45,863 nt of DNA from a virus: positions 1 to 45,863 of IMG/VR virus record IMGVR_UViG_3300027867_000009; one strand, written 5' to 3'. The stretch's first letter is position 1. Each line of letters starts with the position of its first letter. A program made the translations under genes and the position numbers. This document shows positions 4,392 through 23,811 of this stretch, piece after piece. The notes under the pieces were generated by a model, which made no database searches, was not told the DNA's origin, and was given only the letters and a program-made list of their open reading frames with translations.

Positions 4392-5600
4392 CTAGAAGTC
4401 GGCGGTGAAGTCGAGGACACCAGCGCCCGATGCCGTAGATGTAATTTCACACCCGTCCTTCGCCGTCATGCCGGTCGTCGTGAAATTGATCGAAGCATTA
4501 TTGACGCCGTTTGCGCCGAGCGTCGCCGAGAACGGCGTCGAGAGCGCGGTTGCGGACTGCGAGGCTGACGTGATCGTGAAGGTCGTCGCCGACAGCGCGT
4601 TGGTGTAGGTCGGCGCCACGCGCATCGTGGTCGGGAACGGGATGACGATCGAGCAGGTCGTCGTGGTGCCGAGCGCCGTGCCGCCGCCGAATTGAATAGC
4701 GCCCGCGGTATCGATCTCGTTGTAGCGGATGAAATACCGTTGCGCTTCGAGAATCTCTTGACCGTAGGGGCGATACTCGAATGAGGAAGCAACTGCGCCC
4801 TGTTCAAGCTGCACTCCGGTAAACTCGAAGCCATCGGTCGCGCCCGCCGTGCCGCCCGTCGTCGGCGTCCAGCACAAGGCGACCGCCGCTTCCTTCGCGG
4901 TGCCGGGGATCTGATAGGTCGCCGTGAAACGTTGCCATGCTGAGGTCAAAGTAAACGCGGTCGTTTGCGACGAGGCGATGCCGGTCCATGCTGGCGTGAT
5001 CGCGGGCGACGCCGTGAAGCTCTGCAAACCTTGATCGACGCCCGTGCCGGTGAACAGATACGCATTGAGCGTCGTCTGCTCGGCCAGCATGTTCGCGAGG
5101 CCGTAGGCATAAAAAGAAAGCGTTACGCCCTGGCCTTGCAGCGGCACAATGCGCGTGGTCGGGATTTCCTGCATGACGCATTGCGGCTGCGCCAGCGCGC
5201 CGGACGTGCGGTAGAACAACTCGGCGTCGTTAAAGATCGGTTGCGCCGGCAGATTCGTGGTGACGACCTGCAAGCTGCCCGCACCGGAAGTGACGTTGAC
5301 ATTGCAGCCCCAGCGGTCGGCCGAATAGGCACTCGATGGGATGGTCGTGGTGCCGCATGTCTTTGCTGCCGTACCGCGTTGATCGACCTGCATTCCGCCG
5401 TTATCGAGGATATTGCGCGGCGTGGTGTATGTCACCATCGTCTGCGGCGTGATGCTGGCGTTGATCTCTCGGATGAGAGTGTTCAACGCGCCGATCATGT
5501 TTGCCGGCTGGATAGGACCGGAGAACAACGGGATATTCGCCGCCAGCGCGATCGTCCCGCTCAGCACCAGGGCGCTCAGCGCCGCAAGGGTCTTCCTCAT
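4392..5600 (-). CDS. Secreted tail-fibre-type protein with carbohydrate-binding-like module
   Basis: The protein is 402 aa, starting at the ATG at 5600 behind AGGAG. Residues 1-20 are a textbook Sec signal peptide: an N-terminal MRK, a hydrophobic core, and a cut after ALA before ANIP. Residues about 65-290 match the phage/prophage tail-fibre module that opens with DNGGMQVDQRG...ADRW and closes with QLEQGAVASSFEYRPYGQE and QRYF. This module is often compared with carbohydrate-binding (CBM4/9-like) jelly rolls. The C-terminal 110 residues are Thr/Ala/Ser-rich beta structure. It probably binds host surface glycan. The signal peptide is odd for a virion protein; see findings. Confidence 0.8.
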   Translation of the reverse strand: MRKTLAALSALVLSGTIALAANIPLFSGPIQPANMIGALNTLIREINASITPQTMVTYTTPRNILDNGGMQVDQRGTAAKTCGTTTIPSSAYSADRWGCNVNVTSGAGSLQVVTTNLPAQPIFNDAELFYRTSGALAQPQCVMQEIPTTRIVPLQGQGVTLSFYAYGLANMLAEQTTLNAYLFTGTGVDQGLQSFTASPAITPAWTGIASSQTTAFTLTSAWQRFTATYQIPGTAKEAAVALCWTPTTGGTAGATDGFEFTGVQLEQGAVASSFEYRPYGQEILEAQRYFIRYNEIDTAGAIQFGGGTALGTTTTCSIVIPFPTTMRVAPTYTNALSATTFTITSASQSATALSTPFSATLGANGVNNASINFTTTGMTAKDGCEITSTASGAGVLDFTADF

Positions 5601-5654
5601 TGCCTCGTCTCCTATGCCCGGATGTGAGGGTTTAGCACTTTCTTTTCAGGGGGT

Positions 5655-7379
5655 CTAGTTGGCGTTCACCTGGTCGTCCCAGCCTACCACGCTCATCGCC
5701 GCGCCCGCACCGCCGCCTGCCCAGTAAAGCGACGTGCTTTCAAGAACCAGGCTGCACGCAACGGAGTTGACGGCCGTGGCGCCGCCATAGCAGGGCCAAG
5801 TATTGTTGTTCGAGCCGGCAGGACCATTGTTGCTGCCGCCCCAACCGCTGTTCGGCGCGACCTCGACACCAGCCCCGGAGTTGGCCCCGTAGCCGACGTT
5901 CAAAGCAAGATAAATCACGGACGCGGTGGGCGGCACGAACGCGGCGACGCTCTGCGCGACAAGAACGGGTGAGGTAGCCGAGTACGTCCCTACAGTGCCG
6001 CTCGCGATGGTCGGCGACGTCGCCGGGTTGGTGCCAACCACGTACTGAATGCGCTTGCCGAGTTGCAACGTGCGCTCGATATTGGCGCTGCCATCCGTGC
6101 GCATCGCGCCGACCCGACAGACATAAGGATAGCCGGTTGGCAGGGTCGGCGCGGTCGCCGACGTGCTGCCAAGCCCCGCGATCGCGGTCCCATTGTCGAT
6201 CAAATAAACATAGAGCCAGCCGCTCGTCGGCCGGTTTTCGCCGTCCATACCGTTCGCGGCGCTAGTCGAGTTGCCTGTTGTCGTGTTAATCGCGATCGAG
6301 ACTGGCGTGCGGTAGCTGACAAGCCCGCCGCTCGTCACGGTTACGGCGCTGCTCGCCGTCACATCGACCAGCGTGTTCGGCGTGCCGCTATCGTTGACGA
6401 TCTTCAGCCCGCTCGCGCCGCATAGTGGCGTCGCCGCTGTGCTCAGCGGCGAGCCGGTCGCGCGCATGTAGTTCGTGACCAGCCAATTGCCGCCGCCACT
6501 GCTGCCAGCACCGAGATACTGCACCGTCGCGGTGTCACCGGCTTGCGTGATGATGTTCTGACTGCCCGGCGTCTGGATACAGCCGCCCGTCGTCGCGCAG
6601 TTCGTCTGATTGTAGGTGATCGTCAGCGCGCCGTTAAAATAAAGGTTGTAGTACGGATATGTCGCGTTCGCGGTCTGCCCGAACGACGTGATCGTAGTCG
6701 TGCCGGTGATGCTGACATTATGCGACGGTATCGTGCCGAGATCGGTCGTGCTGGCCGACGCGAGCGTGGTGGACGGCCCGTAACCGCCGAACTGCGCGGT
6801 TGGATTGAGAAGCTCGAACTCCGTACCATCCCACTCGGCAACAACAAGCTGGCCGGCTTGTATCTCGCCGCCTGTCATCGGCTGCGGGCCGCTCGGTGTC
6901 TGCCGGAAGAAGCTTGGCGGGCAAGCCGATGCGCAAGTCGGATACGTGGTCGAGGTAACGGTCTGGCCGTTGACTTCAAGCGTCAAGGCACTCGCAGCGG
7001 TGCCCGGCGCTGTGTTTGTGTAACCAGCGATGAACGCGACAGTATAGTTTTTGGTCAGCGTAAAACCGGATGGCGTGGTCGTCGCCACGAGCTGCGCGTT
7101 CGCTGCGCCCGTCGAGTTCGCTCCTGAGAAGACCAGTGTGCCGCCCGATGCCGGCTTGAGCGGCGTCGTCAGCCCTGATAGCGACGTGATATCCGAGTTG
7201 TTGCCTGCCGCTGCGGCATTGCCCAAGCACGCCACGATGGCATTGTAGTTCGCCATGACCTGCGTAGCGTCGGCCGTCGTGCCGTTGGTCAAATTATAAG
7301 GAAGCGAGCAGCCGACGCCGGCAAAAGCGCCCGTGACGCCAAAGAGCGAGAAGATGGCAGCAAAAAATAAGCGTTTCAT
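5655..7379 (-). CDS. Secreted tail-fibre-type protein, 574 aa
   Basis: The start ATG (7379) overlaps the stop of the tail-nozzle gene as ATGA, so the two are translationally coupled. Residues 1-20 form a Sec signal peptide (MKRLFFAAIFSLFG..., cut after AFA before GVGC). The mature N-terminus has a Cys-containing segment (GVGCSLPYNLTNGTTA) and a short helix. The rest is Thr/Ser/Gly/Asn-rich beta-solenoid-like sequence with several Cys pairs (for example CASACPP and CATTGGC). The Cys pairs would fit folding in the periplasm. No peptidase or glycosidase motif is seen. Being coupled to the nozzle gene suggests a tail appendage. Confidence 0.75.
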   Translation of the reverse strand: MKRLFFAAIFSLFGVTGAFAGVGCSLPYNLTNGTTADATQVMANYNAIVACLGNAAAAGNNSDITSLSGLTTPLKPASGGTLVFSGANSTGAANAQLVATTTPSGFTLTKNYTVAFIAGYTNTAPGTAASALTLEVNGQTVTSTTYPTCASACPPSFFRQTPSGPQPMTGGEIQAGQLVVAEWDGTEFELLNPTAQFGGYGPSTTLASASTTDLGTIPSHNVSITGTTTITSFGQTANATYPYYNLYFNGALTITYNQTNCATTGGCIQTPGSQNIITQAGDTATVQYLGAGSSGGGNWLVTNYMRATGSPLSTAATPLCGASGLKIVNDSGTPNTLVDVTASSAVTVTSGGLVSYRTPVSIAINTTTGNSTSAANGMDGENRPTSGWLYVYLIDNGTAIAGLGSTSATAPTLPTGYPYVCRVGAMRTDGSANIERTLQLGKRIQYVVGTNPATSPTIASGTVGTYSATSPVLVAQSVAAFVPPTASVIYLALNVGYGANSGAGVEVAPNSGWGGSNNGPAGSNNNTWPCYGGATAVNSVACSLVLESTSLYWAGGGAGAAMSVVGWDDQVNAN

Positions 7380-9064
7380 GCGACCGCCGTGATGTCCGTC
7401 AGGTAGCGAAGCAGCTTGTAACGCATGAAAAGCGCGCCAATCTTGATCGCGCTTCCCGACTGCCCGGTAGCCGAGATCGCCATCTTAGCGAAGACCACCG
7501 GCAAATGCCACTGTAGTTGACGCGGCAGGAGCGCGCTTTGCGCCGCGCCCCATAAAGCCGAGCCCCAGGTAAACGCGCCCCATATCGTCGCGCTGCCCGG
7601 CGTCGTGACAGTCACGCCATCAAAGATAACACCGTTCGGATCAACCGAGGCGACGGTCGCCGGCACGCTCGCAGACAGCGCCATGTCGAGCGTCGCGTAA
7701 CTCATCGCGACATTATTCATCTTGCGCGTATTCGGCAAAAAGGCAGTCTGATACGCCCACGCCATCGCAACACCGTTCTCAACAAAAAGGCTCAAGGTGT
7801 TTTGCACTGGATCGCTTTGCCAAAGGCTGCCCATCACGCCAACGGGCGTCATGATAAACGTATTCTGGTAAGGCTGAATCAAGGATGCCGGGAACGTGTG
7901 CGGCCCCGACCAGATTTTGCGCGGGATATCGTACCACCACTCTTGCGTCCCGGTGCTGGGAAACGGCGTCGCTTTCTGAAACTCATAGTCGAACTCGTAG
8001 CTGAAAGGACCAGGCAAAAAAATTGGTGGCTGATAGGCGGTCGGCGTCGAGATGCGCACTACGTCGCCCGATGCCGCCATGACAATACGCGACGGCTGCG
8101 ACGAGTAGATGAAAGGCAACGTGATGCCGTTGCCATCGTTGCCGATCGGATCAGACACATTGCCCATGAAGTCGATCACGCGCATCCCATCCGGCGAGAT
8201 GAATGCAAGCCCCGCCTTGGTCGGCGCGATGCCGAGTGGTGAAAGCGTGCCGGTTGCCACGTTCAAGGCGTTGACTGCCAAGGTGCCGAGCGCCGAGTCG
8301 CCCGTCACCTGGTACATGTTATTGACGCCTTTGAAGACGATAAGACCTTGGATGATGCCGCCCGCCTGATTGTAGAGCCGCAAGCCGCCGAGCGCGGTAA
8401 GGAAGACATTATCGCCGAACGTCAATACTTGCGTCGCATTGGTGATCTGTGTCGGGTTCAACGGATCGGAGAAAACAAGCGCCGGTTGCTGCGGCAAATT
8501 CACGATGTAGTACGCACGACCATTGAACTGAGCCACGAAGGTCGGCGGCAACGAAAATTGAATTTGCCCCGTCGTGTTGCCCGCATTCCAGATCGGCGCG
8601 CCGGGATTTGTCAGGTCGAACCAGCCGATGAAATAGGCAGTCGCGCCAAAACCCGGATGCGTGACCATCAGCTTCGAGCCGACGACATCCATCGTCGGCG
8701 GCACCCACGGGCCGGTCGCCGCGGGGCTTGCCGGCACGTTGTTGACCGTCACGCCCGTCACCGGCACGAACGTCTTGTTCAGAAGATTGAAGCAAAACGG
8801 CTGGTCGAAATTCGCGACATTGACCAGCCCATAAACGTAGGAGCCAACCACCTTGAAAGTCGAAACGAAGCCCGCACCGAGCAATTGAGTCGTGATATCG
8901 CCAATTTGCACGGATGCCGGCCGGCATTGCCAAAGATCGGGCGATGACGGATCAGGGATCAAGTTCGAGAGCGCCGACATCGCCCCCGGAAACGTCTGTG
9001 AGCTATCGAGTGTGTCGCTGCAACCCTTCGGATACCACGGCAGCGGAACGGAGTTGCGTTGCAT
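7376..9064 (-). CDS. Tail nozzle / tail tubular protein B-like (gp10-type)
   Basis: An open frame extends to 9298, but its first 78 codons lie over the hydrolase gene and are low-quality sequence. The ATG at 9064, which overlaps the hydrolase stop by one base (TGATG), gives a protein beginning MQRNSVPLPWYPKG and 562 aa long. The content is beta-rich throughout, with YGLVNVANFD, VFSDPLNP, FKGVNNMYQVTGDS and ISPDGMRVIDFMG segments typical of the beta-propeller tail nozzle proteins (T7 gp12 / P22 gp10 families). It sits with tail-tube, spike and lysis genes. It should form the distal tail tube and the DNA gate. Identification is by sequence character and synteny; I am fairly sure of the role. 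Confidence 0.8.
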   Translation of the reverse strand: MQRNSVPLPWYPKGCSDTLDSSQTFPGAMSALSNLIPDPSSPDLWQCRPASVQIGDITTQLLGAGFVSTFKVVGSYVYGLVNVANFDQPFCFNLLNKTFVPVTGVTVNNVPASPAATGPWVPPTMDVVGSKLMVTHPGFGATAYFIGWFDLTNPGAPIWNAGNTTGQIQFSLPPTFVAQFNGRAYYIVNLPQQPALVFSDPLNPTQITNATQVLTFGDNVFLTALGGLRLYNQAGGIIQGLIVFKGVNNMYQVTGDSALGTLAVNALNVATGTLSPLGIAPTKAGLAFISPDGMRVIDFMGNVSDPIGNDGNGITLPFIYSSQPSRIVMAASGDVVRISTPTAYQPPIFLPGPFSYEFDYEFQKATPFPSTGTQEWWYDIPRKIWSGPHTFPASLIQPYQNTFIMTPVGVMGSLWQSDPVQNTLSLFVENGVAMAWAYQTAFLPNTRKMNNVAMSYATLDMALSASVPATVASVDPNGVIFDGVTVTTPGSATIWGAFTWGSALWGAAQSALLPRQLQWHLPVVFAKMAISATGQSGSAIKIGALFMRYKLLRYLTDITAVA

Positions 9065-9573
9065 CACGAGCCCTGCGCAAGCTGCCTCTCTGCGAGAATC
9101 ACCGCGCCCTGGATCGCCGGGTCGGTATCCACATTGATGTGCATATCCCAGGTATCGACCGTGCGCAAAGTCCCCTTGAAGTCCGGCGCCGTGGTCAAGG
9201 ACGCATGGCCGACAGGCGGAAAGGAGCTGGCCGGATTGACGTTGTGAAAACAGATTGCCTGCTTGACGTTGCCGTGCAGCGCCGCGCACGCCAGCCATAT
9301 CGTCGGATCGAGCGAGATCAAAAGATCAATCGGGATATTTTCAGCGGCGATCTGCGTCACTTCACTCGCGCCGTTCGAGTAGCCGATCACCGAGCGCAAG
9401 GTCGTAGCGGGAAGCGCCCTAAGCGCATTGGCCGCATCCTGCCACTGGTTCCAATGTCGCACGATGACCGTAGCACCCGGCAACTTTCGCAATTCAGCGG
9501 CGATCGTCAGCATACCCGGCGATGTTTGATCGTCGCCAAGCCCTTCGAGGATCTCGATGTGAATGAGTTTCAT
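9064..9573 (-). CDS. Alpha/beta-hydrolase-fold protein in the lysis/tail cluster
   Basis: The protein is 169 aa. Its ATG (9573) overlaps the stop of the endolysin gene as ATGA. A nucleophile elbow GYSNGAS (about residues 85-91) fits G-x-S-x-G. An Asp in ISLDPT and a His in DMHINVD follow in the right order for a Ser-Asp-His triad. No signal peptide is seen. The size is small for the family and close to minimal cutinase/thioesterase types. It is coupled between endolysin and tail nozzle. It may be a second lysis enzyme (an esterase, as LysB is in mycobacteriophages) or a tail-associated deacylase. The substrate cannot be told from sequence. Confidence 0.65.
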   Translation of the reverse strand: MKLIHIEILEGLGDDQTSPGMLTIAAELRKLPGATVIVRHWNQWQDAANALRALPATTLRSVIGYSNGASEVTQIAAENIPIDLLISLDPTIWLACAALHGNVKQAICFHNVNPASSFPPVGHASLTTAPDFKGTLRTVDTWDMHINVDTDPAIQGAVILAERQLAQGS

Positions 9574-10088: not shown

Positions 10089-10101
10089 CAGCATGTACCC
10101 T

Positions 10102-12246
10102 CTAGCAATGTGTGACGATACCGTTAACGGTCGCGAAACTTGACGTTGGCGAGCCCGAACAATTCACCCCGGCTGTCCCAACATCGACAAGCTGACCAGC
10201 AGCATCGAACTTAGGTATATCACCTGCCGTGCGCGTGCCGGATACGCCTTGGACACTATAGTTCGAGCCGCCATTGTAGCTAAACTCAAGCTGGTGCGAC
10301 GTGCTATCATCCCACATCTCGCCTTGGCCCGATTGCGCGGTCGGCGCTGCCGTTTCAGCTGCCCAGTTATATAGCTGCGCTCGCGGCTCACCGGAACCAT
10401 CATTCACCGTGCCGTCACCAAACAAAAATGCAGGGTGCCCGTTAACCGTGCCTTGCGCCTGAATGTCTTGTGCCGAGCAGCTTCCTACCCCAGCTGCATT
10501 CAGACAAAGCATCGTGCCGGCAACATCCGTCTCAGTGATAGTGCCGCCAGAATTGAGAATCGAGCCGAGCGCGAATTCGGATGTACCGGACGGATTGACG
10601 ACGTACATCTGAAAGTCGTTGCTGGCTGCCGTCGCGCTGGCACCCCACTTGATATATCCGCCGCCGAGCGATGCGTCGCCTTGCACAACGCTACCGGACG
10701 AGTTGAAGTAGGCGTTTGTTCCGATAAGTCCATAGTCGGAACCTGAGATCGTCGCCGCGGCCCCGAACAAAGCGTCACCCGGCTGATTGGTCGTTCCGAT
10801 GACGACCGGATTGCCCATGACCCCATTTAAGTACTTGCTGCTCGGCGGGATGTTCGAGAAATCGCCAAGAACCGGAGCCGAGCCCTCAAGCGTCTGTACG
10901 AGATTCGCCATCGTCATGTTCGCAATGGCGAGTTTCATCGTGAAGGTGACGGTGCCGTTGGTATTGTTGTTAGTTGCATCGTAATAGAAATAGGTCTTGC
11001 CGTTGACTTCCAGCAAATAAGGATCGGCGACCTGACCAAGCGTATGCGTATCCGGCCCCGGTCCCTCGTCCCATGACAGCCGACAAAGCACGCAGCCGGC
11101 GCTTGGGCTCAACGACCACGACGTTAAATTGGACGACGTGAAGCGCCAGATGTCGCCAGCGGTATGCCCCGCCGCTGCATACTGCGTCCATTGCCAATAG
11201 GTACTGCCGTCAACAAACACGAACGGGCAACCGGCATTGTTTGCCATCACCGGATTACTGACAGACTTCGTAAACGTGTATCCATTTGAAGAAGTCGCAA
11301 GCCCGGTCTCGTAGCCAGTCCCGCCGACAAATGCACCGTACATCATGTAATAAGTGCCGCCATTGATCCAGACATACGGATCAACTAGGCCGCCGCTATC
11401 CCAGCCGCCTCCCGGCGCGACGACGCTGGCATGAGCAACCGACCAGCTCAGACCGTTTGTAGAAGTCATCTGGTCGATTGCGGAGCTGCCGTTCACCCAA
11501 TAGCTGACATAAGAGTTAGCACCCAGCTTGATGAAAGTCCTGGGCATCGTGTGCGAAGTATCGATGGGATTACTGGCATAACAAGTCCAGGCGACACCGT
11601 CCGGCGATTCAGCGTACCCAACATCGTTCGCACTTCCCGCGTCATAGTGAAACAGCATCTTGAAGACGCTGGTGTACTGCGTCAAAATTTGCGGGTTGGT
11701 GTCGTATATGATTGCGTGTTCGGCAACGCTGGTGCTGCAATGTGCGTTGCTGGAGTTCATCACTTCGCCCATGCGATTCCACACGGGTGCGCTGCCAGTC
11801 GGCTGCGCGTTAAAAAAGCCGGGCGTCGGCAGGGTTGACCCCACGTAAGGCTGGCTGGCGGTCAGCAGAGCCCCGATCGGCACACCGCTGTCGCCTAAAG
11901 CAGAGCCATTCGTCGCGTTCCAGGTCACGATGTCAGGAACGACCGTGGTTCCTGGTCCAGTAATGTACCCACCGCCGCCGCTCGAACACGTAATAGAACT
12001 CAATGTCGGCAAGCCCGTTACCATTTGTCCTGATGGACACACGAGCGACGTGCCGCCATTCAGATCAAAGTACGAGTCCACAATATCGATCAGCGTCGAG
12101 CGGACTGTTGCCGCCGTGATTTGATTCGGTACGCCACCGGCAAAATTCGTGTTGACCTCGGTAGTCAACGCAGCCTTGGTCTTCTGCGCATAGGCAGGCG
12201 CGCAAGACAGGAAGATAGCGGCAAGGACCAGAAGTTTCTTCATCAT
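10102..12246 (-). CDS. Secreted tail-spike-type protein with beta-propeller (GH43-like) domain
   Basis: The protein is about 714 aa. The start is one of two adjacent ATGs (12246/12243) that overlap the stop of the HNH-type gene. Residues 1-20 form a Sec signal peptide (MMKKLLVLAAIFLSC..., cut after AYA before QKTK). Residues about 20-60 form a helical N-terminal module ending NGGTSLVCPSGQ. Residues about 140-470 repeat the blade pattern of five-bladed propeller glycosidases (YWVNGSSAID, GLVDPYVWINGGTYYMMYG, VADPYLLEVNGKTYFYYDA). Asp in the two VDP/ADP segments is where such enzymes place catalytic Asp residues. The C-terminus is beta-rich and may be the trimer-forming part. It is likely a glycan-degrading or glycan-binding spike; enzyme activity is unproven. 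Confidence 0.75.
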   Translation of the reverse strand: MMKKLLVLAAIFLSCAPAYAQKTKAALTTEVNTNFAGGVPNQITAATVRSTLIDIVDSYFDLNGGTSLVCPSGQMVTGLPTLSSITCSSGGGGYITGPGTTVVPDIVTWNATNGSALGDSGVPIGALLTASQPYVGSTLPTPGFFNAQPTGSAPVWNRMGEVMNSSNAHCSTSVAEHAIIYDTNPQILTQYTSVFKMLFHYDAGSANDVGYAESPDGVAWTCYASNPIDTSHTMPRTFIKLGANSYVSYWVNGSSAIDQMTSTNGLSWSVAHASVVAPGGGWDSGGLVDPYVWINGGTYYMMYGAFVGGTGYETGLATSSNGYTFTKSVSNPVMANNAGCPFVFVDGSTYWQWTQYAAAGHTAGDIWRFTSSNLTSWSLSPSAGCVLCRLSWDEGPGPDTHTLGQVADPYLLEVNGKTYFYYDATNNNTNGTVTFTMKLAIANMTMANLVQTLEGSAPVLGDFSNIPPSSKYLNGVMGNPVVIGTTNQPGDALFGAAATISGSDYGLIGTNAYFNSSGSVVQGDASLGGGYIKWGASATAASNDFQMYVVNPSGTSEFALGSILNSGGTITETDVAGTMLCLNAAGVGSCSAQDIQAQGTVNGHPAFLFGDGTVNDGSGEPRAQLYNWAAETAAPTAQSGQGEMWDDSTSHQLEFSYNGGSNYSVQGVSGTRTAGDIPKFDAAGQLVDVGTAGVNCSGSPTSSFATVNGIVTHC

Positions 12247-12704
12247 ATCTTTTCCATGTAGGCAACAATAGCACGTAGTTCTGCTAATGAAGCATGGCAC
12301 TTAATCCTATTAGCTCGGTACGACATGATTGCTACGTTACCTTTTACGTACCCCCTTTCTGGGATCGTCCGATCAATAGAAGGACTATTATCCGAAAAAG
12401 CACCAGAACGTTCTTTAATCGGGATCCCTAGCACTGGACAAATATTGGGAAAGACCAAATCTTCCAGCGTAAGATCAAATGGAAGTCCTTTCTTTCTAGC
12501 TCTGTGCTTTATGTTATTTAACCAAAGTGCTCGATAACCTTCTCCTGTACCCGCTCGTCGGTACGCACGATCTTTTTCCCTTCTACGCACCAAAACACGA
12601 TTCTTATCCTTCCACCGTTTATTTATCTGATTAACACTCTTTCTATGCCCCCGCTTCCATTTCCGCATGTAGGCATTACGTTTCAACCGTTGAACAACAT
12701 CCAT
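12243..12704 (-). CDS. HNH-type endonuclease-like gene inserted among tail genes
   Basis: The protein is 153 aa with a strong ribosome site (AGGAAGGA) before the ATG at 12704. The N-terminal 60 residues are very basic (RKWKRGHRK, RRREKDRAYRR). The core has a CPVLGIPI segment, then SIDRTIPERGYVKGN and SYRANRIK. I know this pattern from phage HNH/endonuclease-VII-like proteins whose SxDRxxPxxGYxxGN motif supplies the Asp/His-Asn part of the active site. Codons are markedly AT-richer than in both neighbours, and it is wedged between the tail-tube and spike genes with overlaps at both ends. It is best read as a free-standing homing-type endonuclease that has invaded the late operon. Confidence 0.75.
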   Translation of the reverse strand: MDVVQRLKRNAYMRKWKRGHRKSVNQINKRWKDKNRVLVRRREKDRAYRRAGTGEGYRALWLNNIKHRARKKGLPFDLTLEDLVFPNICPVLGIPIKERSGAFSDNSPSIDRTIPERGYVKGNVAIMSYRANRIKCHASLAELRAIVAYMEKI

Positions 12705-13492
12705 GCTGGCATCCTTCCTAAAAGATGCAACATGCTATCACCAGCCAATATCCACGGCAACAAAATTGTCCACCCGATCTGCTTCGTGTTTCTCAGCCGG
12801 TCAAACGCCGCGCCGAAATTCCTTCGGTCGAGCATCACGCGCTGCGAACGATTTTCTCGGTCATCCTTCATTTTCAGATAGCGCCGCAGCACCACACCCG
12901 CGCCGCCAGGATAACGGTCTTCGTCGTAAGACAGCAACGCCTCATGGCGCTCGTCATCCGTGATCTTGGCGATCTCACCGGAGAGCCGCGTCAACAAGTA
13001 ATTTTGATTCGGGAACCATGGCACCGTCGCGAAGTTCGTGATGTCGGCCGGCTGCTTCTGATAGCGAATAACCGCGGGATACGAACCACTCGGCGGCATC
13101 CAGAAATAGGCAGTCGGCGGCGTTGTTGACATGTCAGTAGCAAACACAGTCGGAAAATTCGACAGCCCCGGCGTCGCCACAAGCCGGTCAAACTCGTCCA
13201 AATCGACCGGGATCAAGACGTAAGGCACGCCGTTGATGTAGTAGAAGCACTCGTTCGGCCGCGCTCGCAGATAGTCGGCCGGGAGCGCCATGCTGACGAT
13301 CTGCGCCCCGCCGTAGGATATCGCGTTGGTCGGCAGGTTAAATTGCAGCGTCGCGCGCAGCACATCGAAGTCGTAGGCTTGCGCCAGCTCTTGCAGAATC
13401 ACGTTCAACAGATTTTGCGCCTGCGCCGTGAAACCAGGCACGTTGAGGTTCTGGCACGCCTGCGTAACGATTTGAGCCGCCGTCAAAGGCAC
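12683..13492 (-). CDS. Tail tubular protein A-like / head-tail adaptor
   Basis: The protein is 269 aa from a GTG at 13492 with GGAG at 7 nt. The N-terminal helices (AAQIVTQACQNLNVPG, LLNVILQELAQAYDFDVL) followed by beta sandwich sequence (ALPADYLRARPNEC, PTAYFWMPPSG, LLTRLSGEIAKITDDER) fit the gp4/gp11-type adaptor ring below the portal of podophages. It is placed after the head-completion genes and before the spike. The last about 30 residues are hydrophobic (ILLPWILAGDSMLHLLGRM) and overlap the start of the inserted HNH-type gene. This end may have been altered by the insertion. Confidence 0.7.
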   Translation of the reverse strand: MPLTAAQIVTQACQNLNVPGFTAQAQNLLNVILQELAQAYDFDVLRATLQFNLPTNAISYGGAQIVSMALPADYLRARPNECFYYINGVPYVLIPVDLDEFDRLVATPGLSNFPTVFATDMSTTPPTAYFWMPPSGSYPAVIRYQKQPADITNFATVPWFPNQNYLLTRLSGEIAKITDDERHEALLSYDEDRYPGGAGVVLRRYLKMKDDRENRSQRVMLDRRNFGAAFDRLRNTKQIGWTILLPWILAGDSMLHLLGRMPAWMLFNG

Positions 13493-15115: not shown

Positions 15116-16465
15116 TTAGCCGAACGTCAGGTTGAAGTTGGAAGTGGACTCGACGCGCATCGCGAAGTTCTGATTCTCGATGAGCGTGCCGTAAAAGCAC
15201 TTCCAACCGACGATCCGCAACTGGTTGAGCGGATCAGACTTGTCGCCTTCCTTCAGGTAGGTGAATTTCACGTCGTCGAGCATCACCTGACCATAAGCCC
15301 CGCGACCAAAAATGAAGTTCGGATAGACCGTGACGCCGGTATTCGGCGCGGCAGGCGGCGTCTGCGCGGCGCCGATGCCGGTGATAACCACCGTCTGCCC
15401 CGGCGCGAGCTGCGTCGCTTGCCCTTGCATCGGGCCGCTATCAGGACCGGCAACCGAGAGACCAAGATTACTCAGCACGGTCGAGCCTACCTGCGTCATA
15501 TAAACACTGTAGGTGTAGCCGGCGAGCGCGGGCAGTGCCACCGAGATCGAGCCGTTCGGCCCCACCACGTTGACAACGGCACTGGTCTGATAAATGCGAC
15601 TCTCGTACTGGTTCTGCGTGTCCGACGCCGTGACCTGAATGTAGTAGGCTCCGGTCGCGAGATTGCCGGCCACACCGTTCACACCATTGATCGCCGCAAC
15701 GCCGGTCCAATTCGGCACCATGTTCGACATGCAGAACCGGATGCCGGACCACTCGCCGATCTCGTAATTGTAGAGCCGGTTGATGTCCGAGTACGACCAC
15801 GCCTGGTTGATCGCCGAGTTTTCGCGCAAGTCGCCGGCCACGAAGGGGTGCAGAACGCACACGTAATGCGGCATGGAGCGCGGATTGCTCGACGCCTTTG
15901 AGCCCCCGGCCTCGGCCGCGAGCTTCGTGTCCGTCATCTCGTCGCCCATGTAGCGCGGGGCGCCGAGCGTGAACAGCATCGAGTAAGCGCGGTTCAGCTC
16001 GTGAATGTTCATCACGTCGCCAGCCGCGAGCGAGGCGCGCGAGCCAACCGAGTTGACGAAATTGACCTGAGTAAACGCCATCAGGTTAACGAACGTATTG
16101 CGTTCCAGCGTCTCGGCGACCTGAAGGCCGGTCAACTCGATCGCTTTCTTGAACAGCGGATGCTTGATGGTCAGCTCCGCAACGTCCGTGATCGTGATCT
16201 TGTCGCCCCACTGCAAGGCGGTCGCCACGACCTGCTGAATGGTCATCAGCTCGCCGACAGGCGGGACGCCCTCGGACAACGGCGCGAAGGGCAGCGGTAC
16301 GCGCTGATAGCGCGTCGCCGTGTAGCTTTGCCCGCGTCCTTTGGGCAATTCGAGCGGATCGCCGAACTGGTAAACGACTAGCTGCCGGCGCGCGAGAGGA
16401 AGGGTTTTGTCGGCGATATAGGCTTCTACGTCAGCCTGAAAATTGCCGGAAACATTGACGGCCAT
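15116..16465 (-). CDS. Major capsid protein, N4-gp56-like, with surface-domain insertion
   Basis: The start ATG at 16465 (GGAG 9 nt upstream) gives 449 aa; an in-frame TTG three codons earlier is less likely. The N-terminus (VEAYIADKTLPLARRQLVVYQF, contiguous in the protein) and the GRGQSYTATRYQRVPLPFAPLSEGV strand region are typical of the N4-gp56 HK97-fold capsid family, as are ALQWGDKITITDVAELT and the C-terminal YLKEGDKSDPLNQ...RVEST segment. Residues about 255-370 interrupt the fold with a beta-rich domain (YYIQVTASDTQNQYESRIYQ, then a Pro/Gly linker) resembling Ig/Fn3-like capsid surface domains. It is preceded by a scaffold gene and a portal, as expected. Confidence 0.9.
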   Translation of the reverse strand: MAVNVSGNFQADVEAYIADKTLPLARRQLVVYQFGDPLELPKGRGQSYTATRYQRVPLPFAPLSEGVPPVGELMTIQQVVATALQWGDKITITDVAELTIKHPLFKKAIELTGLQVAETLERNTFVNLMAFTQVNFVNSVGSRASLAAGDVMNIHELNRAYSMLFTLGAPRYMGDEMTDTKLAAEAGGSKASSNPRSMPHYVCVLHPFVAGDLRENSAINQAWSYSDINRLYNYEIGEWSGIRFCMSNMVPNWTGVAAINGVNGVAGNLATGAYYIQVTASDTQNQYESRIYQTSAVVNVVGPNGSISVALPALAGYTYSVYMTQVGSTVLSNLGLSVAGPDSGPMQGQATQLAPGQTVVITGIGAAQTPPAAPNTGVTVYPNFIFGRGAYGQVMLDDVKFTYLKEGDKSDPLNQLRIVGWKCFYGTLIENQNFAMRVESTSNFNLTFG

Positions 16466-16497
16466 GACCTGCAACTCCGTCTATGAGGCGCTAAGCC

Positions 16498-17715: not shown

Positions 17716-18429
17716 TTAGTAAAGCGCCTCAAGGCGAGCTTGGCAGATCGTATTCACGGTCGCCCTGGCAGGCACACTGCCCGTCAAATTGAGCCCGACG
17801 TTACCCAGCGAGCAGCCGCCACGCACGTCGAGCGCGAGACCTTGCTGCCATTGACTGAGCAGTCCAGCGCCGACTTCAGGCTGCACAGTCCACACCGTCG
17901 CACTGGCAAGCCCGTAGCTCGCGCTCGTATCACGCACCGGGGCACCTACGTAGATATACGGATGCTGATTGGTCGGCGTCACGCCGGCCGGCAGCGCCGG
18001 CAGCGCGGGGAACACCGAGCTGAGATTCGGCAGGAGCGCCGTAATCGTGGTCAGCGGGAAGCCGAACTTAACGAGCGGCTCAAGCTCCCACTGACTGCTG
18101 GTCTGGCAACTTACCGGATTGGAAGCATTGCACAACGCTGACGAGCCGATATTCGTATAGGTCGCGTCGAACTCAGCAGCAATGAACTCCAAGCCGCCTT
18201 TCCACTGGTAGCCGATCACGCCGTCCACACCGGCCCCCGCAGACAGGAGACTTGCGTTCGCCACGGTCGAGCTGCCGGCCGCCGAGCTGGCGCCGACACC
18301 AAAGTAGAAACCGCTCGATGCGTAAGGATAACCCGGCACGACCGGCGCTGGCGGCGCCTTGGTGACGACTTGCGCGTGCGCGACGCTGCTGAAAAGAAGC
18401 GCAATCAAGGTAGCCCCAAACTTCCTCAT
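17716..18429 (-). CDS. Outer-membrane beta-barrel-like protein with Sec signal peptide
   Basis: The ATG at 18429 overlaps the stop of the upstream 57-aa gene (ATGA). The protein is 237 aa. Residues 1-19 are a Sec signal peptide (MRKFGATLIALLFSSVAHA, cut before QVV). A short Pro-rich linker (APPAPVVPGYPYASSG) follows, and then alternating strands: FYFGVGASSAAGSS, VIGYQWKGGLEFIAAEFDATY, PLVKFGFPL, YIYVGAPVRD, WTVQPEVGAGLLSQWQQGLALDVRG. This resembles small rhizobial outer-membrane barrels (Omp25/opacity-like). The chain does not end in the usual C-terminal Phe (it ends EALY). In a phage it could alter the host surface, for instance superinfection exclusion. Confidence 0.65.
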   Translation of the reverse strand: MRKFGATLIALLFSSVAHAQVVTKAPPAPVVPGYPYASSGFYFGVGASSAAGSSTVANASLLSAGAGVDGVIGYQWKGGLEFIAAEFDATYTNIGSSALCNASNPVSCQTSSQWELEPLVKFGFPLTTITALLPNLSSVFPALPALPAGVTPTNQHPYIYVGAPVRDTSASYGLASATVWTVQPEVGAGLLSQWQQGLALDVRGGCSLGNVGLNLTGSVPARATVNTICQARLEALY

Positions 18430-18599
18430 GACTTCACCCCGCTCTGCTCGATAATCAACGCTATTTCTTTGCTCACCGCGAGCATGTCCTTCACGTCGGG
18501 GTCAGCCTCGATGCGCTGCGCCGTTGCAATTGCCTTCTCGATGCGAGGCATCAAGGGCAACAGTTTCGGTGCGAGCGTGAGGATGTCCCCGAAATTCAT
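18426..18599 (-). CDS. 57-aa small protein between holin candidate and OMP-like gene
   Basis: This is a short frame from the ATG at 18599 to a TGA at 18426. It overlaps the 80-aa gene upstream by 4 nt (ATGA) and the OMP-like gene downstream by 4 nt (ATGA), so three genes are coupled in a chain. The protein starts MNFGDILTLAPKLLPLMPRI and continues as a mostly helical chain with alternating charge (EADPDVKDMLAVSKEIALII). It has no membrane-spanning stretch long enough to call. Function unknown. Perfect coupling on both sides makes expression likely. Confidence 0.7.
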   Translation of the reverse strand: MNFGDILTLAPKLLPLMPRIEKAIATAQRIEADPDVKDMLAVSKEIALIIEQSGVKS

Positions 18600-18838
18600 T
18601 TCGCCGGTCCTTTAACGATGAAGCCGGTCTGGTTGTCTTTCGACGGGATGCCGGTCAACACCGCGTTAATCGTGTTGCCAAGACCGAGGCACAACGAGAT
18701 CAGCGCCATGACCACCTTCACCTGGGTAGGATTCATTCCGAGATCAGTGAGCAATGCTCCGACGCCGCTGAGATAGCCGAGCACCGCCAAGCCCAAACTG
18801 AGAAAGATGCTGTATCGTGGGTCGAGCGTCATCGTCAC
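18596..18838 (-). CDS. Two-helix membrane protein, holin candidate
   Basis: The protein is 80 aa from a GTG at 18838 that overlaps the portal stop (GTGA); an ATG two codons in is an alternative. There are two hydrophobic segments: residues about 10-30 (SIFLSLGLAVLGYLSGVGALL) and about 40-60 (VKVVMALISLCLGLGNTINAVL), followed by a polar, basic tail. This is the layout of class II holins. It lies in the late operon with an endolysin that lacks a signal peptide, so a holin is required and this is the best candidate. Identification rests on topology only. Confidence 0.65.
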   Translation of the reverse strand: MTMTLDPRYSIFLSLGLAVLGYLSGVGALLTDLGMNPTQVKVVMALISLCLGLGNTINAVLTGIPSKDNQTGFIVKGPAK

Positions 18839-21030
18839 ATCCCCCGTGCCCGTGGCATTGCGCTAGCGTCTCGTAACCTGTCCTGGTGTATTACACCCGG
18901 AGGGTTTTGTCCACCACGCGGTCCATTGCTGCGTGCGCCAACCCGCGGCTGGCCGCCCTGGGCACCTTGCTGCCCTTGTGGACCACCCATTTGTTGCTGA
19001 GCTGCCTGAGCCATCTGCGCCTGCATCTTTTGCTGCATTTGCATCTGGTGCCGCATCATGTGCTCACGGAACGCGCCGGTCGGATCGCCATGCTCCTGGA
19101 ACGCCTGCATGTGTGATTTGAGATGCTCTTGGTCGTTATCCAACGGCGACACCGGCACTTGGAACCCGGCTTCGAGCATCGTATTCTCGAATTCAGGCTG
19201 CATCGACAGCCGCTTGCGAATGTCCTGAAAGACCTCGCCAGCCACGCGCGGTCCAAACAGGTTTTCAAGAAACGTCTGAAGCACGGGCGCAAGATTAAGC
19301 TCGAAGCCCTGGTACTGTTGCGGCGGGATACCGCGTACCATGTTAAGGCCGGCCATCTGCAACTGCATCTGTTGCGCGCTACGCGCGGCCTCGACGCCGA
19401 ACCACTTGACCTCCCAGCGCCGGTCCATCTGCACCGGCTCAATCTCCTGCATGTTCATCTCTTTACCGACCATACCGAACTGCCGCAAAGTCAGCGGCTT
19501 ATCGCGAAACTGGTGGTCGAGATAGACGAACCACCGCAAGATCGGCGTCAGCATGTCGCCCTCAAGCCCCGTCACCACGTCAGCAGTCGTCAGCACATCA
19601 ACCTGCTGCTCTTGCGCGACTTGTGCCTGCGTCGGCTTGCCGCCTTTCTGCTGCGTCTGCTGGGGCATCATCGCCGGGTTGACGCCAAGCGTCTGAAAAA
19701 TTTGCTGCTTGCACGACTGAACAATCTCGAAGCCGTCCTTCCACAACGGCGGGAACTGAGCGAATTGCGTATCTTTCGGATTCGTCTCCCACACCGCCGC
19801 GACGCTCAAGATCATCGACCCGACACGCGGATTCTTCGCCGGGTCGGTCATCACGATCGGCAGGAGCGCGTAAGCTGCGCTGTCCATCGCCTCGTTCACG
19901 GCGTCGTTCGCCGCGTACTGGATGGTCTCGATGTTTTTGATCTCGCTGCGCCCCTTGAACGAGCCCTCGACGCGATTGGTCGGCGACGACAAAAGCGGCA
20001 CCTGGTCGCACCAGTACGGATTGCGCTTGCAGGTCAGAACCAGTTTCTCGCCGCCGAACCGCATCCGGCAGATACGACGCTCACCATCAATGTTGAGCAT
20101 CGTCCACGTCTCATAGACAAGCGCAAACAGCTTGCCCGACTCGCTCTTGATACCCGCCGAATCGACGATCGCCTGCTGCTTGTCCGGCGTGCCCGCCGCA
20201 TCGCGCTTGCTGAACGACTCGATGAGTATCTCGCCCTTGTCCTTGTCGATCTCGCCGTCACGGATAAGTTGCTTGATCCGGCTCTTGGACCAGCGACGCA
20301 ACACCGTCGCCGAACCGCCCATCGCGATCGCTTCCTCGACGCTGCGCGCCGTGAACGGCAGCACCAACACGTCGGCATCAGGCAGCACTTCAACGTCGGG
20401 GTAGGCATGCTCGATCGTGTCTTCCTCGATATCCCAATACGGCTCGTCTTCATCAAGCTCGATATCGGGATCGTCCTCGACGGTCGGCTTCTTCTCGACG
20501 CGCCAGGTGACATGCCGCTTATTCTTGATCCAACCCATATAAACGTTGCGCTGACCCTCAATATCGCCGTTTTTTAACAGTGCCGGCAGCACGGCGGAAC
20601 GCAAGCGCGCCTTGCGGATATAGAATTCAAGCAGCGCCATCATCGCTTCAGGATGATTCTCGCTGGTAATGACCTCGACATTCTTGCCGGATGGCGGGAA
20701 AATCTGATTGACGAACCGCGTCACGCGCGCGTTCACCGCGTCATGCACGATCGGAATAAAAATTTTTGAATTGCCGGAATAAAACTGCTTGGCGCCTAGC
20801 TCACAGTTGTAGATATCCCAGTAGTCCATCTGCGCATTCGCGCGCTCCCACTGATCTGAAAAACCTTTCTCAACGTCCTTGTAAACGTCGAGACAGGCAT
20901 CATCGATCTCTTTGTCGTTACACAGTTCCTCGTCGCGTTCCGACATGTCATCGAAGCGACGGCGCGCGGCTTCCTCGCGCTCATCCGGCTCGGCAGGCTC
21001 CTGGCGAAGTTTTTTGGGATCGGATGCCAC
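18835..21030 (-). CDS. Portal (head-tail connector) protein
   Basis: The protein is 731 aa from a GTG at 21030. It lies directly between the terminase side and the capsid module. Residues 1-110 are charged helices leading into YWDIYNCELGAKQFYSGNS and FIPIVHDAVNARVTRFVNQIFPP, a typical portal wing/stem entry. The core contains EIKNIETIQYAANDAVNEAMD and PLLSSPTNRVEGSFKGRSE. Residues about 640-731 form a Gln/Met/Gly/Pro-rich low-complexity tail. The protein is long for a T7-type portal (about 535 aa) and closer to P22/N4-type portals. It docks the terminase during packaging and the tail afterwards. The start is not fixed: no strong ribosome site precedes the GTG. Confidence 0.85.
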   Translation of the reverse strand: MASDPKKLRQEPAEPDEREEAARRRFDDMSERDEELCNDKEIDDACLDVYKDVEKGFSDQWERANAQMDYWDIYNCELGAKQFYSGNSKIFIPIVHDAVNARVTRFVNQIFPPSGKNVEVITSENHPEAMMALLEFYIRKARLRSAVLPALLKNGDIEGQRNVYMGWIKNKRHVTWRVEKKPTVEDDPDIELDEDEPYWDIEEDTIEHAYPDVEVLPDADVLVLPFTARSVEEAIAMGGSATVLRRWSKSRIKQLIRDGEIDKDKGEILIESFSKRDAAGTPDKQQAIVDSAGIKSESGKLFALVYETWTMLNIDGERRICRMRFGGEKLVLTCKRNPYWCDQVPLLSSPTNRVEGSFKGRSEIKNIETIQYAANDAVNEAMDSAAYALLPIVMTDPAKNPRVGSMILSVAAVWETNPKDTQFAQFPPLWKDGFEIVQSCKQQIFQTLGVNPAMMPQQTQQKGGKPTQAQVAQEQQVDVLTTADVVTGLEGDMLTPILRWFVYLDHQFRDKPLTLRQFGMVGKEMNMQEIEPVQMDRRWEVKWFGVEAARSAQQMQLQMAGLNMVRGIPPQQYQGFELNLAPVLQTFLENLFGPRVAGEVFQDIRKRLSMQPEFENTMLEAGFQVPVSPLDNDQEHLKSHMQAFQEHGDPTGAFREHMMRHQMQMQQKMQAQMAQAAQQQMGGPQGQQGAQGGQPRVGARSNGPRGGQNPPGVIHQDRLRDASAMPRARGM

Positions 21031-21037
21031 CTAGAAT

Positions 21038-23620
21038 TCACCGGGAAGCGTGTTCGTGGAGCGCGGCGAGCTGCGCACGAAGATCGTCATTGTCAGCCTT
21101 GAGCTGCTTGATGCTCGCAACGAGATATGCTTCTACGCAGCGATCGTCGTAATTCAGATGTCCCTCGTCATCGACCTTGTGGACGCAATTGGGATTGGTC
21201 GCTTCCACGTCGTTCGCAATCAGGCTGACGTGGACGGCTTTGCCGTGGTCTTGGTATTTTGGCTTGTAGCGGTAGGATGGCGTGCGCCAACCGACGACCG
21301 CATCGAGTGCTGCGGCGGGCTTGATGTCTTGGCCCGCGATAAGGTCCTTGACGTTGATGTCGCTGATGCCACAGATCGTACTGCTGGTATCGGTCTCGAT
21401 CTGATTCGAGTTAATGCAGAGCGCGGACGAGCCAGAGCCAGCGGTGAGGCCGGTCATGTAGATTTTACCAGCGAAGGTCCACGCTGCCGCGGTGGTGTGG
21501 CCGTAATCGGCGCGTAAGTGCGCCTGACCGTCGCCGATTTGAATCGTGTTGCTTTCACCAACTGTGCCGGTCAATTGCGCGCCAATAATCGTATTGTAGC
21601 TTTCGGATGACGTGTAGCTGCCGCCGTTAGATGCCCCGACTGTCGTGTTGTACTGCCCAGTCGTGATGCCATAGAAACTGCCCTGTCCATCAGCGGTATT
21701 GTCTGAACCGCTGGTCAGAGCTTGAAGATCACCGTTGCCAAGCCCGATGTTGTTATTCCCGGTCATCACAGCGGATGTGCCGCCCATCACCTGCGTACCA
21801 AGCGCCACATTATTGTAGCCAGTAGATATGTTCTGGCCCGCTTCATAGCCAACAGCAACATTAGGGCCAGTTGACGACTGCGCTGTAAAGTTTTGGAGAG
21901 CGTCGTCACCTATCGCGATGTTCTCTGGTCCCGACGTAACAGCGTGCAACGCACTTTGTCCTATCCCAATGTTGTTTCCTCCGGTCTCTGAATAATTACC
22001 ACCAGCAGCAAAAACGCTCGCGCTACCATCAATCCACAAATAATAGCCAGCCCAGTTGATGTTCCCAATCGTGGTTGACGACCCGGATGGCAGATTCACA
22101 CTGTCGGTCACACCAACGCCGCCAAGACTGTAAAACGCATTTGACGCGATAGTGCTAGAGTTAGCCGTGCTGGCAGTGTGTAACGCGCCTGTGACGGTCG
22201 TCGCTGGAGTGATCGTCACCACGCCAGTCGAGACGCTGCCGATGCCGATGGTACCGGTGCCCTTGGCGTTGATAGTCAGATTGTTGTTTGATCCGCTATC
22301 TGTTGTCTTGACCGCGACAGTGCCGCCAGTCGCCGCGCCGACAATATCGAGGCCAGCGACCTGCGAAGCCGTCGAAGCATCCACATTGAATGCTGGATTG
22401 GTCACGCCATTCAAGCCAACAGCAAGCGCGTTTGCCGAGGCTGATGTGACCGTGTGCGCTGTACTAACAAGTGTCGTAAAAGTGCCCGCGGCCGCCGCAG
22501 TCCCGCCGATCGCAGGTGGCGACGCGAGATAGGTGGAAAAGCCGGTGCCGGACACCGTTGAACTGGCGCTAAGCGTGGTGAAGGCGCCCGCCGCGGCCGT
22601 CGAACCACCAATCGCAGAACCATTGATGCCGCCGCTGGTCCAAGTGCCGCTGTCTGGCAACGTGACTGTGCCTGTCAGTGTTGGCGACGCTTTGGGCGCC
22701 AGCGATGACAGCAACGTTCCGCTATCCTGCACACCGACTGTCGTGTTTGACATTGTGACAATATCGTTGGCGGTGTTGCCGCTTGCGGTGCCAAAATTAG
22801 CATTGCCGCCGCCACTGCACGCTGCCCAAGCAGGCGCGCCTGACACGCCTTTCAAGCAATCACCATCGACCTCGGCTAAACGAGCGATGACGTTGCTCGA
22901 TCCCGAATTGTAGTAGATATCACCCTTGGCATCAGAACCAAAAGCTGCGGTCACGCCACCTAAAGTCGCACCGCTTCCCAAGCCCCCCGATGTGATCGTG
23001 CCGGTAGTTGTGAGCGAGCTAAGCGTCGTGACGGCGCTGGTCGCAACACCACCACTAGTGTTCACCGCGTCACCAAGCGCGGTCGCAACGCCCGTCCCAA
23101 GTCCTGTCACCGAGCCGATGGCTGGCGCGATCGTCGTCGAGGTAACAGTCGTCAGTTGCCCCGCGGCATTGTAGGTGATGATTGGTACGACGGTCGCCGA
23201 GCCCGTAGGGCCACCTGCGGTTATGACACCGCCTTCAGCTACTTGATTTGTCGCCGTGCCGAATGTCGGAGTGACAGAGCCCGCCGTCACCGTCAGACCA
23301 GTGCCAAAATCCGCGCAACCGATCTGAGACGACGTTGCGACCGTGCATTTAATCGTCACCGCGCCGGTATATGGCCCACTACCCGTGCCGGTCATTGTCA
23401 ATGTCGAGTCAGTTGAATAGTTGCCGATCGACGAGACACCCGACCCCCCGCCACCGCCTGTCGTGCAGAGTTTGCCGTTCGTGTCGATCGTGATCGGCAT
23501 GATCGCGCCAGCCACGAATGTCGGTGGCGCCGTGCCGCAAGTGCCGACGACCAGTGCCTCTTGCGCGTGCGCGCCGTGAAGCGAAAAGAGCAGCAGCGCA
23601 GCTGCGAGCAGTTTTTTCAT
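21038..23620 (-). CDS. Secreted tail fibre with YadA-like head repeats and C-terminal S74 chaperone domain
   Basis: I chose the ATG at 23620, which overlaps the upstream stop as ATGA, giving 860 aa; the longer open frame is not preferred. Residues 1-19 are a Sec signal peptide (MKKLLAAALLLFSLHGAHA, cut before QEALVV). The next 35 residues (TCGTAPPTFVAGAIMPIT) duplicate the upstream gene. Residues 55-540 are Ser/Thr/Gly-rich beta repeats. Residues about 560-720 show YadA-type repeats (NNIGIGQSAL, NIAIGDDAL, NVAVGYEAG, NNVALGTQ). The end (SDINVKDLI ... LIANDVEATNP ... coiled coil) is the self-cleaving S74 intramolecular chaperone that trimerises fibres. Confidence 0.8.
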   Translation of the reverse strand: MKKLLAAALLLFSLHGAHAQEALVVGTCGTAPPTFVAGAIMPITIDTNGKLCTTGGGGGSGVSSIGNYSTDSTLTMTGTGSGPYTGAVTIKCTVATSSQIGCADFGTGLTVTAGSVTPTFGTATNQVAEGGVITAGGPTGSATVVPIITYNAAGQLTTVTSTTIAPAIGSVTGLGTGVATALGDAVNTSGGVATSAVTTLSSLTTTGTITSGGLGSGATLGGVTAAFGSDAKGDIYYNSGSSNVIARLAEVDGDCLKGVSGAPAWAACSGGGNANFGTASGNTANDIVTMSNTTVGVQDSGTLLSSLAPKASPTLTGTVTLPDSGTWTSGGINGSAIGGSTAAAGAFTTLSASSTVSGTGFSTYLASPPAIGGTAAAAGTFTTLVSTAHTVTSASANALAVGLNGVTNPAFNVDASTASQVAGLDIVGAATGGTVAVKTTDSGSNNNLTINAKGTGTIGIGSVSTGVVTITPATTVTGALHTASTANSSTIASNAFYSLGGVGVTDSVNLPSGSSTTIGNINWAGYYLWIDGSASVFAAGGNYSETGGNNIGIGQSALHAVTSGPENIAIGDDALQNFTAQSSTGPNVAVGYEAGQNISTGYNNVALGTQVMGGTSAVMTGNNNIGLGNGDLQALTSGSDNTADGQGSFYGITTGQYNTTVGASNGGSYTSSESYNTIIGAQLTGTVGESNTIQIGDGQAHLRADYGHTTAAAWTFAGKIYMTGLTAGSGSSALCINSNQIETDTSSTICGISDINVKDLIAGQDIKPAAALDAVVGWRTPSYRYKPKYQDHGKAVHVSLIANDVEATNPNCVHKVDDEGHLNYDDRCVEAYLVASIKQLKADNDDLRAQLAALHEHASR

Positions 23621-23811
23621 TGGCACACCTGGCCGCTGGTATTTTGAGTTATCGGCATCATGGCGCCCGCCACGTAGGTCGGCGGTGCGGTGCCGCATGT
23701 CGTAACGACAAGCGCCCCGCCGCTGTTTTGCGCTCTGACCAGTATTGTGACGAGCGAGCTAAGAATAAGGCCTGCGAGCAGGAGAAGTGCCAAGCCAATT
23801 AGCCTTCGCAT
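23617..23811 (-). CDS. Small signal-anchored protein duplicating the fibre N-terminus
   Basis: The protein is 64 aa from the ATG at 23811, overlapping the terminase end by 53 nt and the fibre start by 4 nt. Residues 1-27 form a long hydrophobic signal or anchor (IGLALLLLAGLILSSLVTIL, then VRA before QNSGG). The remaining 37 residues (ALVVTTCGTAPPTYVAGAMMPIT...) are near-identical to residues 22-52 of the following fibre. It reads like a detached copy of the fibre's secretion/attachment module. Whether it is a functional adaptor or a relic of fibre exchange cannot be told. Confidence 0.7.
   Translation of the reverse strand: MRRLIGLALLLLAGLILSSLVTILVRAQNSGGALVVTTCGTAPPTYVAGAMMPITQNTSGQVCQ

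Follow-up and report, generated by a model that had tools for sequence, protein, structure and literature searches.

Predicted Sec Export and Periplasmic Oxidation of Tail-Fibre-Type Adhesins in a Clade of Uncultivated Podophages

Analysis of a 45,863-bp virus record (the window, meaning the whole stretch of DNA that was analysed) pointed to five tail-fibre-type adhesins that would leave the cytoplasm by the Sec pathway, lose their signal peptides, become oxidised in the periplasm and attach to virions at or after lysis, and to a sixth exported protein that would be a separate outer-membrane barrel. The probability of this reading was put at about 0.55. Assembly of tailed phages, including that of their tail fibres, normally takes place in the cytoplasm, and no report of Sec-exported or signal-peptide-bearing tail fibres was found in open-access papers.

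The gene content of the whole window was that of a podovirus-like phage. The late genes for the terminase, portal, scaffold, capsid, tail and internal proteins lay on the minus strand and the replication genes on the plus strand. The major capsid protein (15116-16474, minus strand; PHROG major head protein, E 8e-35) served to gather relatives. Six genes with signal peptides, all on the minus strand, were interleaved with these late genes, and all six open reading frames were present where a sequence-only reading had placed them. N-termini were scored with a home-made semi-Markov n/h/c model (three regions and a matrix for positions -5 to +2) trained on 45 Gram-negative signal peptides, a few of them approximate or representative; in leave-one-out scoring the median was 11.7 and the 5th percentile 1.9. 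The model gave +11.0 for 4392-5600, +2.9 for 5655-7379, +11.7 for 10102-12246, +11.3 for 17716-18429, +12.5 for 21038-23620 and +2.3 for 23617-23811, whereas the other 45 window proteins scored from -2.2 to -39.8, so that the proposed Sec-type N-termini stood out from every control. The terminase large subunit (23759-25789, minus strand; PHROG terL, E 3e-46) and the portal protein (18835-21030, minus strand; PHROG portal, E 2e-9) were among the controls without a signal peptide. The features of Sec and signal peptidase I substrates were found, namely a basic n-region, a hydrophobic core and small residues at -3 and -1. The weakest call was 23617-23811, with a long hydrophobic stretch and an unclear cleavage site. 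When all start codons opening at least 60 aa in the six frames were scanned, 12 of 1464 scored above 2; eight of these belonged to the six genes, as two of the genes have an additional in-frame start, and the others lay in three unrelated stretches, which places the pattern far from chance.

Five of the six proteins were fibre-like, the exception being 17716-18429. The first, fibA (4392-5600, minus strand; 402 aa), consisted of the signal peptide MRKTLAALSALVLSGTIALA, with the predicted cut between ALA and ANIP, and a tail-fibre protein that matched PHROG tail fiber at E 3e-35; its distal region matched tail fibres without signal peptides from phages HMO-2011, S-2L and ctXG6705. In fibB (5655-7379, minus strand; 574 aa), the signal peptide MKRLFFAAIFSLFGVTGAFA was followed by GVGC and a tail-fibre protein. 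An AlphaFold2 model of its residues 1-200 (mean pLDDT 79) showed two helices, the first being the signal helix, and a beta domain, and this predicted beta domain matched viral tail fibres and receptor-binding proteins in Foldseek with E down to 1e-8, with no convincing match of the fibB domain among PDB folds. The third, fibC (10102-12246, minus strand; 714 aa), carried MMKKLLVLAAIFLSCAPAYA followed by QKTK and a spike or fibre with a propeller-like part, for which the Pfam GH130 match was 22.5 bits, below the cut-off of 26. The S74-chaperone-type fibre fibD (21038-23620, minus strand; 860 aa) began with MKKLLAAALLLFSLHGAHA followed by QEAL, matched PHROG tail spike at E 9e-12 and Peptidase_S74 at 21.9 bits, just under the Pfam cut-off of 22.0, and its distal part matched the CRP-831 tail fibre, which has no signal peptide. 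A start of fibD at 23698 was considered less likely than the ATG at 23620, as its relatives align from the MKK start. The short fibE (23617-23811, minus strand; 64 aa) combined a weak signal peptide with a copy of the fibD N-terminal domain and appeared from sequence resemblance to be a partial duplicate of the fibD N-terminus; both of its cysteines lay beyond the long hydrophobic stretch. The fibE reading frame overlaps both the terminase gene and fibD, possibly a trace of fibre swapping. Overall, the fibre-like character of fibA to fibD came from PHROGs, from blastp matches to annotated tail fibres or, for fibC and fibD, from sub-threshold Pfam matches, and PHROG, blastp and Foldseek related the fibre-type domains to known Caudoviricetes fibres. 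Of the parts named in the earlier description of large fibre and spike proteins, the S74 and propeller-like ones stayed just below the Pfam cut-offs. The mature parts of fibA, fibB, fibC, the barrel protein, fibD and fibE held 6, 10, 11, 4, 10 and 2 cysteines, respectively, and an earlier remark on cysteine pairs was correct. The late proteins of the window that have no signal peptide included no further recognisable candidate for a fibre.

The protein omp (17716-18429, minus strand; 237 aa) carried the signal peptide MRKFGATLIALLFSSVAHA followed by QVVT. Its AlphaFold2 model (mean pLDDT 67) contained eight barrel strands and matched NspA, OmpX, OmpW and Ail in the PDB, with a best E of 8e-5. 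Two of its relatives matched Pfam OMP_b-brl, one of them above the cut-off, and the window protein had no Pfam match. The notion that all six proteins are fibres was therefore dropped for 17716-18429 on the strength of the barrel model and the PDB barrel matches, and by its modelled fold this protein is a separate phage-encoded outer-membrane barrel of the Lom/OmpX type. Lom of phage lambda is encoded beside the lambda tail genes (PMC12309495), and omp resembles it, as well as phage barrels of the OmpX/Ail/NspA fold, in its signal peptide, its eight-strand model and its place in the late region. The likeness to Lom is one of fold and position, and a barrel of this type accounts for only one of the six proteins. 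Phage-encoded barrels of the Omp25/OmpX style recurred in relatives of the window (L005, L019, L023, L028, L035, L037 and L064), which suggests Rhizobiales-like hosts.

IMG/VR was searched with the portal, fibB and capsid proteins to gather relatives, 80 of 581 confirmed relatives being taken from the capsid search, and 154 loci were used. Every genome in the clade was metagenomic, and the clade counts were obtained from metagenome contigs with mechanical gene calling and the home-made signal peptide model. In the 154 loci, 197 distinct non-core plus-strand proteins scored above 0 for a signal peptide, against a background of 4 of 597 core proteins, none of which scored above 2. The genes were inserted between the terminase and the portal, after the portal, between ttA and ttB, and after ttB, and the kinds of protein at these common sites varied greatly between phages; several contigs held three to six exported genes of variable kind. 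The gene ttB (7376-9067, minus strand) encodes a conserved 563-aa late protein with a signal peptide score of -12.5, which is probably a tail nozzle or stabilisation protein, as its profile matched an annotated "phage stabilization protein" family (probability 89%, E 2e-6). In the window, the stop of ttB and the start of fibB share 4 nt, and the same overlap (ATGA) between ttB and the next start was present in 50 of 70 contigs. What immediately followed ttB was a gene with a clear signal peptide in 59 of the 70 and with a borderline one in 6. At these 59-65 of 70 ttB junctions, signal peptide genes of the late tail module adjoin the putative nozzle gene, the identity of ttB coming from one profile match. 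Judged from these sequences, the whole clade of soil-type podophages has the trait. Portal, the N-termini of fibC and fibD, and the barrel had no match to cultured phages; the distant cultured match of the capsid protein, StenR_269, had no signal peptide proteins. A fusion of ttB to the fibB distal domain in L152 and L161, hinted at by PHROG 17105, was not confirmed by blastp.

The second conserved late gene, ttA (12683-13492, minus strand), probably encodes the tail adaptor, judging from its position and size; neither ttA nor ttB matched PDB sequences. In the window, a hydrophobic extension of 28 aa follows the conserved NTKxIGW end of ttA; L039, L125, L156 and L158 have comparable ones. Three contigs contained in-frame fusions of ttA and fibC (reading frames starting at L037:4754, L052:5376 and L103:6720), which tie fibC by sequence to a protein that is probably part of the tail. 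The fusion joint had a hydrophobic core resembling that of a signal peptide and ending in A-x-A followed by Q or N; a Met ahead of the core was present only in L103, and a charged n-region of its own in none of the three. The fibre parts held 8 (L037), 11 (L052) and 6 (L103) cysteines. Cleavage of these fusions, if it occurs, would leave ttA with a membrane tail at its C-terminus.

The fibB family comprised 44 sequences, of which 30 were aligned for the cleavage-site statistics. The majority residue reached only 0.45 at positions 2-17, Ala was found at -1 in 30 of 30 and at -3 in 27 of 30, and conservation rose to 0.83 in residues 21-60, directly past the predicted site. A kept A-x-A, a drifting core and conservation from +1 onwards form the pattern expected of a signal peptide that is cleaved, not of a binding helix. 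These figures bear on the idea that the hydrophobic N-terminus is kept as an anchor in the inner membrane or tail hub, so that virions would assemble docked to the membrane with the fibres already outside. Such an arrangement would suit fibE and some relatives (e.g., L068-L070), whose long hydrophobic segments have no clear site, as well as the membrane-spanning stretch between the probable tail protein and the fibre in the ttA-fibC fusions and the hydrophobic C-terminal tail on ttA of the window and some relatives. It was nevertheless judged unlikely, as a hub-binding helix would conserve its sequence and not the A-x-A site, the opposite of what the fibB family displays with its nearly invariant alanines, drifting core and conservation beginning at +1. 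Tethering as lipoproteins through a Cys shortly after the signal peptide was prompted by the fibB Cys at +4 past the predicted site, which is conserved in most of the family. This reading was rejected as highly improbable, because there is no lipobox ([LVI][ASTVI][GAS]C) placing Cys at +1, the fibB motif being AG-V-[PSTG]-C with mostly G or N after A-x-A, and because Cys24 was lost only together with Cys51.

Proteins of oxidising compartments tend toward even cysteine counts. The cysteine-containing proteins with signal peptides were even in 176 of 186 cases and odd in 10 (p=1e-40). As related sequences are not independent, the comparison was repeated with one protein per family, which gave an even-to-odd ratio of 35:3 (p=3e-8). 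The corresponding ratios were 162:225 for core proteins and 31:37 for non-core proteins without signal peptides, and cysteine density was 1.41 per 100 aa in signal peptide proteins versus 0.64 and 0.48 in these two sets. Both non-overlapping halves of the data showed the bias (89:3 and 70:6), and parity shifted as a step at a signal peptide score of 0. Of the 44 sequences in the fibB family, 39 had both Cys24 and Cys51, 5 had neither, and none had just one of them. Together with the even counts, this paired behaviour gives the mature parts the marks of oxidative folding. The fibC of the window, with its odd count of 11, was an exception. Export and oxidation of the fibre-like proteins are thus well supported at the level of sequence.

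The same data speak against chance and against host signal peptide genes that drifted in as functionless passengers. Passenger genes would be in keeping with the mosaic make-up of fibre genes and with the bacterial relatives of the N-terminal domain; yet signal peptide features persisted in dozens of phages whose sequences have diverged strongly, and cysteine parity followed signal peptide status. Chance was ruled out by the window controls, the low core background and the scan of starts, as the sequence-only reading had held in calling the pattern too regular, and the passenger idea was contradicted as well; the two together retain a barely perceptible share of the probability. The evidence supports the prediction that the six N-termini are real Sec signal peptides.

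Orthologues without signal peptides were found for both fibB and fibC. Four contigs had the fibB domain in this form: L117, where it follows ttB at the same locus, L016, and two nearly identical contigs, L152 and L161, that also carry a fibB with a signal peptide at the locus. Both cysteines were absent from all four, whereas among the sequences resembling signal peptide forms the pair was present in 49 and absent in 9 (Fisher p of about 0.001 by hand, with the borderline L068 counted as such a form; p=2e-4 with the original grouping). Among fibC relatives, which were collected with an HMM, five forms had no signal peptide and started with a Met close to or exactly at the N-terminus expected of the mature protein; their cysteine counts were 3 (L039), 1 (L053), 3 (L108), 0 (L119) and 9 (L160). 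Those that keep cysteines therefore have odd counts, while fibC forms with signal peptides are almost all even. The cytoplasmic assembly usual for tail fibres thus fits these orthologues and, by signal peptide scores and cysteine parity, does not fit the signal peptide forms. These orthologues and the state of their cysteines suggest that the same fibre can be made by either route, the cysteines following the route. The proposal that the oxidising periplasm serves disulphide-dependent folding gained support from the parity, the paired loss and these orthologues, all of them sequence features.

The clade fibres share with tailed-phage fibres and spikes (T7 gp17 type, S74 spikes and HMO-2011 gp28) the fibre beta domains, an S74-type C-terminus, the late-operon position by the tail genes and mosaic distal domains; the distal parts of fibA, fibB and fibD matched annotated fibres of HMO-2011, S-2L, ctXG6705, ctVRi840 and CRP-831. 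They differ in having Sec signal peptides and paired cysteines. No checked fibre or tail protein of HMO-2011, S-2L, CRP-831, ctXG6705, ctVRi840 or StenR_269 scored above 0, and the statement that tailed-phage fibres normally have no signal peptide agreed with the home-made model for these distal-domain relatives. Folds of this kind can be exported, as shown by WceF of Pantoea stewartii, a trimer resembling a phage tailspike that is sent out of the cytoplasm by a signal peptide; unlike the clade fibres, it serves a bacterium as a biofilm enzyme and carries a Tat signal (PMC7949094). The uncultivated phages ctUh1700 (MW202637; L088) and cto1L10 (MW202477; L089), whose capsid protein is ~28% identical, encode proteins with signal peptides or similar N-termini and even cysteine counts directly after a tail gene, although with different fibre domains, and the trait may thus reach well beyond the clade.

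The N-terminal signal peptide and Cys-pair domain of fibB, (Q)C.LP..LTNG..ADATQVMANF.....C, was also found in exported proteins of Rhizobiales and other Alphaproteobacteria (Bradyrhizobium, Mesorhizobium, Rhizobium, Reyranella and Sphingosinicella). Unlike the phage genes, these bacterial genes are chromosomal, often tandem, and adjoin genes for exported RHS-repeat proteins. A prophage origin was unsupported, as the examined genes lay beside RHS genes and no matching capsid was found in six genomes. Since the domain apparently occurs in bacteria outside prophages, it does not by itself mean a virion part. The bacterial loci L077 and L079-L083 encode Cys-pair-domain proteins and are a possible source or partner of the phage domain.

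This bears on the main rival, in which the exported and oxidised proteins stay apart from the virion, acting as secreted adhesins or decoys (for superinfection exclusion or prevention of re-adsorption) or as cell-surface modifiers. Decoys would mask receptors within the periplasm or on debris, and the export evidence fits them equally well; the tandem bacterial proteins by exported RHS proteins, the outer-membrane barrel encoded in the same module, as Lom is by the lambda tail genes, and the three to six variable genes in several contigs would also suit them. The window would then have no recognisable receptor-binding fibre, however, and the 4-nt overlap of fibB and ttB in most relatives, the fusion of fibC to ttA in three contigs and the orthologues without signal peptides, which would be ordinary cytoplasmic fibres at the same locus, all point toward the virion. 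Such secreted adhesins are a real but clearly less probable alternative, weakened by these virion-side inferences and by them only; it is likewise by inference only that the orthologues at the same locus favour joining to virions.

Incorporation of the exported fibres into virions is thus proposed because the window offered no other recognisable receptor-binding candidate and because of the coupling to tail genes, the orthologues without signal peptides and the fibC-ttA fusions. Late in infection, the host Sec pathway would export the fibre adhesins, signal peptidase I would remove the A-x-A signal peptide, and the mature fibres would fold in the periplasm with disulphide bonds, three steps that are well supported by the sequence evidence. 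Heads and tail hubs would assemble in the cytoplasm. Fibres carried on virions must then join the tails at or after lysis: holin/endolysin lysis would mix the compartments, and the ready-folded fibres would arm the virions, a step that would need efficient assembly in a diluted lysate. Surplus fibres might, speculatively, coat receptors on the cell and debris. Export would be a module gained or lost per fibre at a fixed locus, as supported for fibB and fibC by their orthologues. Extended to the large uncultivated clade, two-compartment assembly, with fibres switching route by gain or loss of a signal peptide and the cysteines following, has about even odds. If it is true, this phage group makes its adhesins with the host secretion and Dsb systems and is not infectious until lysis, and host Sec and Dsb functions are infection determinants for a reason other than the receptor. 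Exported, disulphide-bonded fibres would also explain the use of cysteine-rich adhesin domains by phages. The combination of signal peptides, cysteine parity and orthologues without signal peptides could serve as a general sequence-only test for exported proteins in any phage group.

Other features of the window were as follows. An exact repeat of the very ends of the contig was looked for and not found. The C-terminal 43-residue stretch of the reading frame 3-1496 is the same as the N-terminal stretch of the reading frame 44708-45862 (window 1-135 versus about 44708-45862). The two ends of the contig thus share sequence, which points to a probably complete genome. By eye, an ATP-grasp-like reading frame (43235-44605; no PHROG match) and a GNAT-like one (3500-4075) were recognised in the late region, and an HNH-type endonuclease (12243-12704) lay between ttA and fibC.
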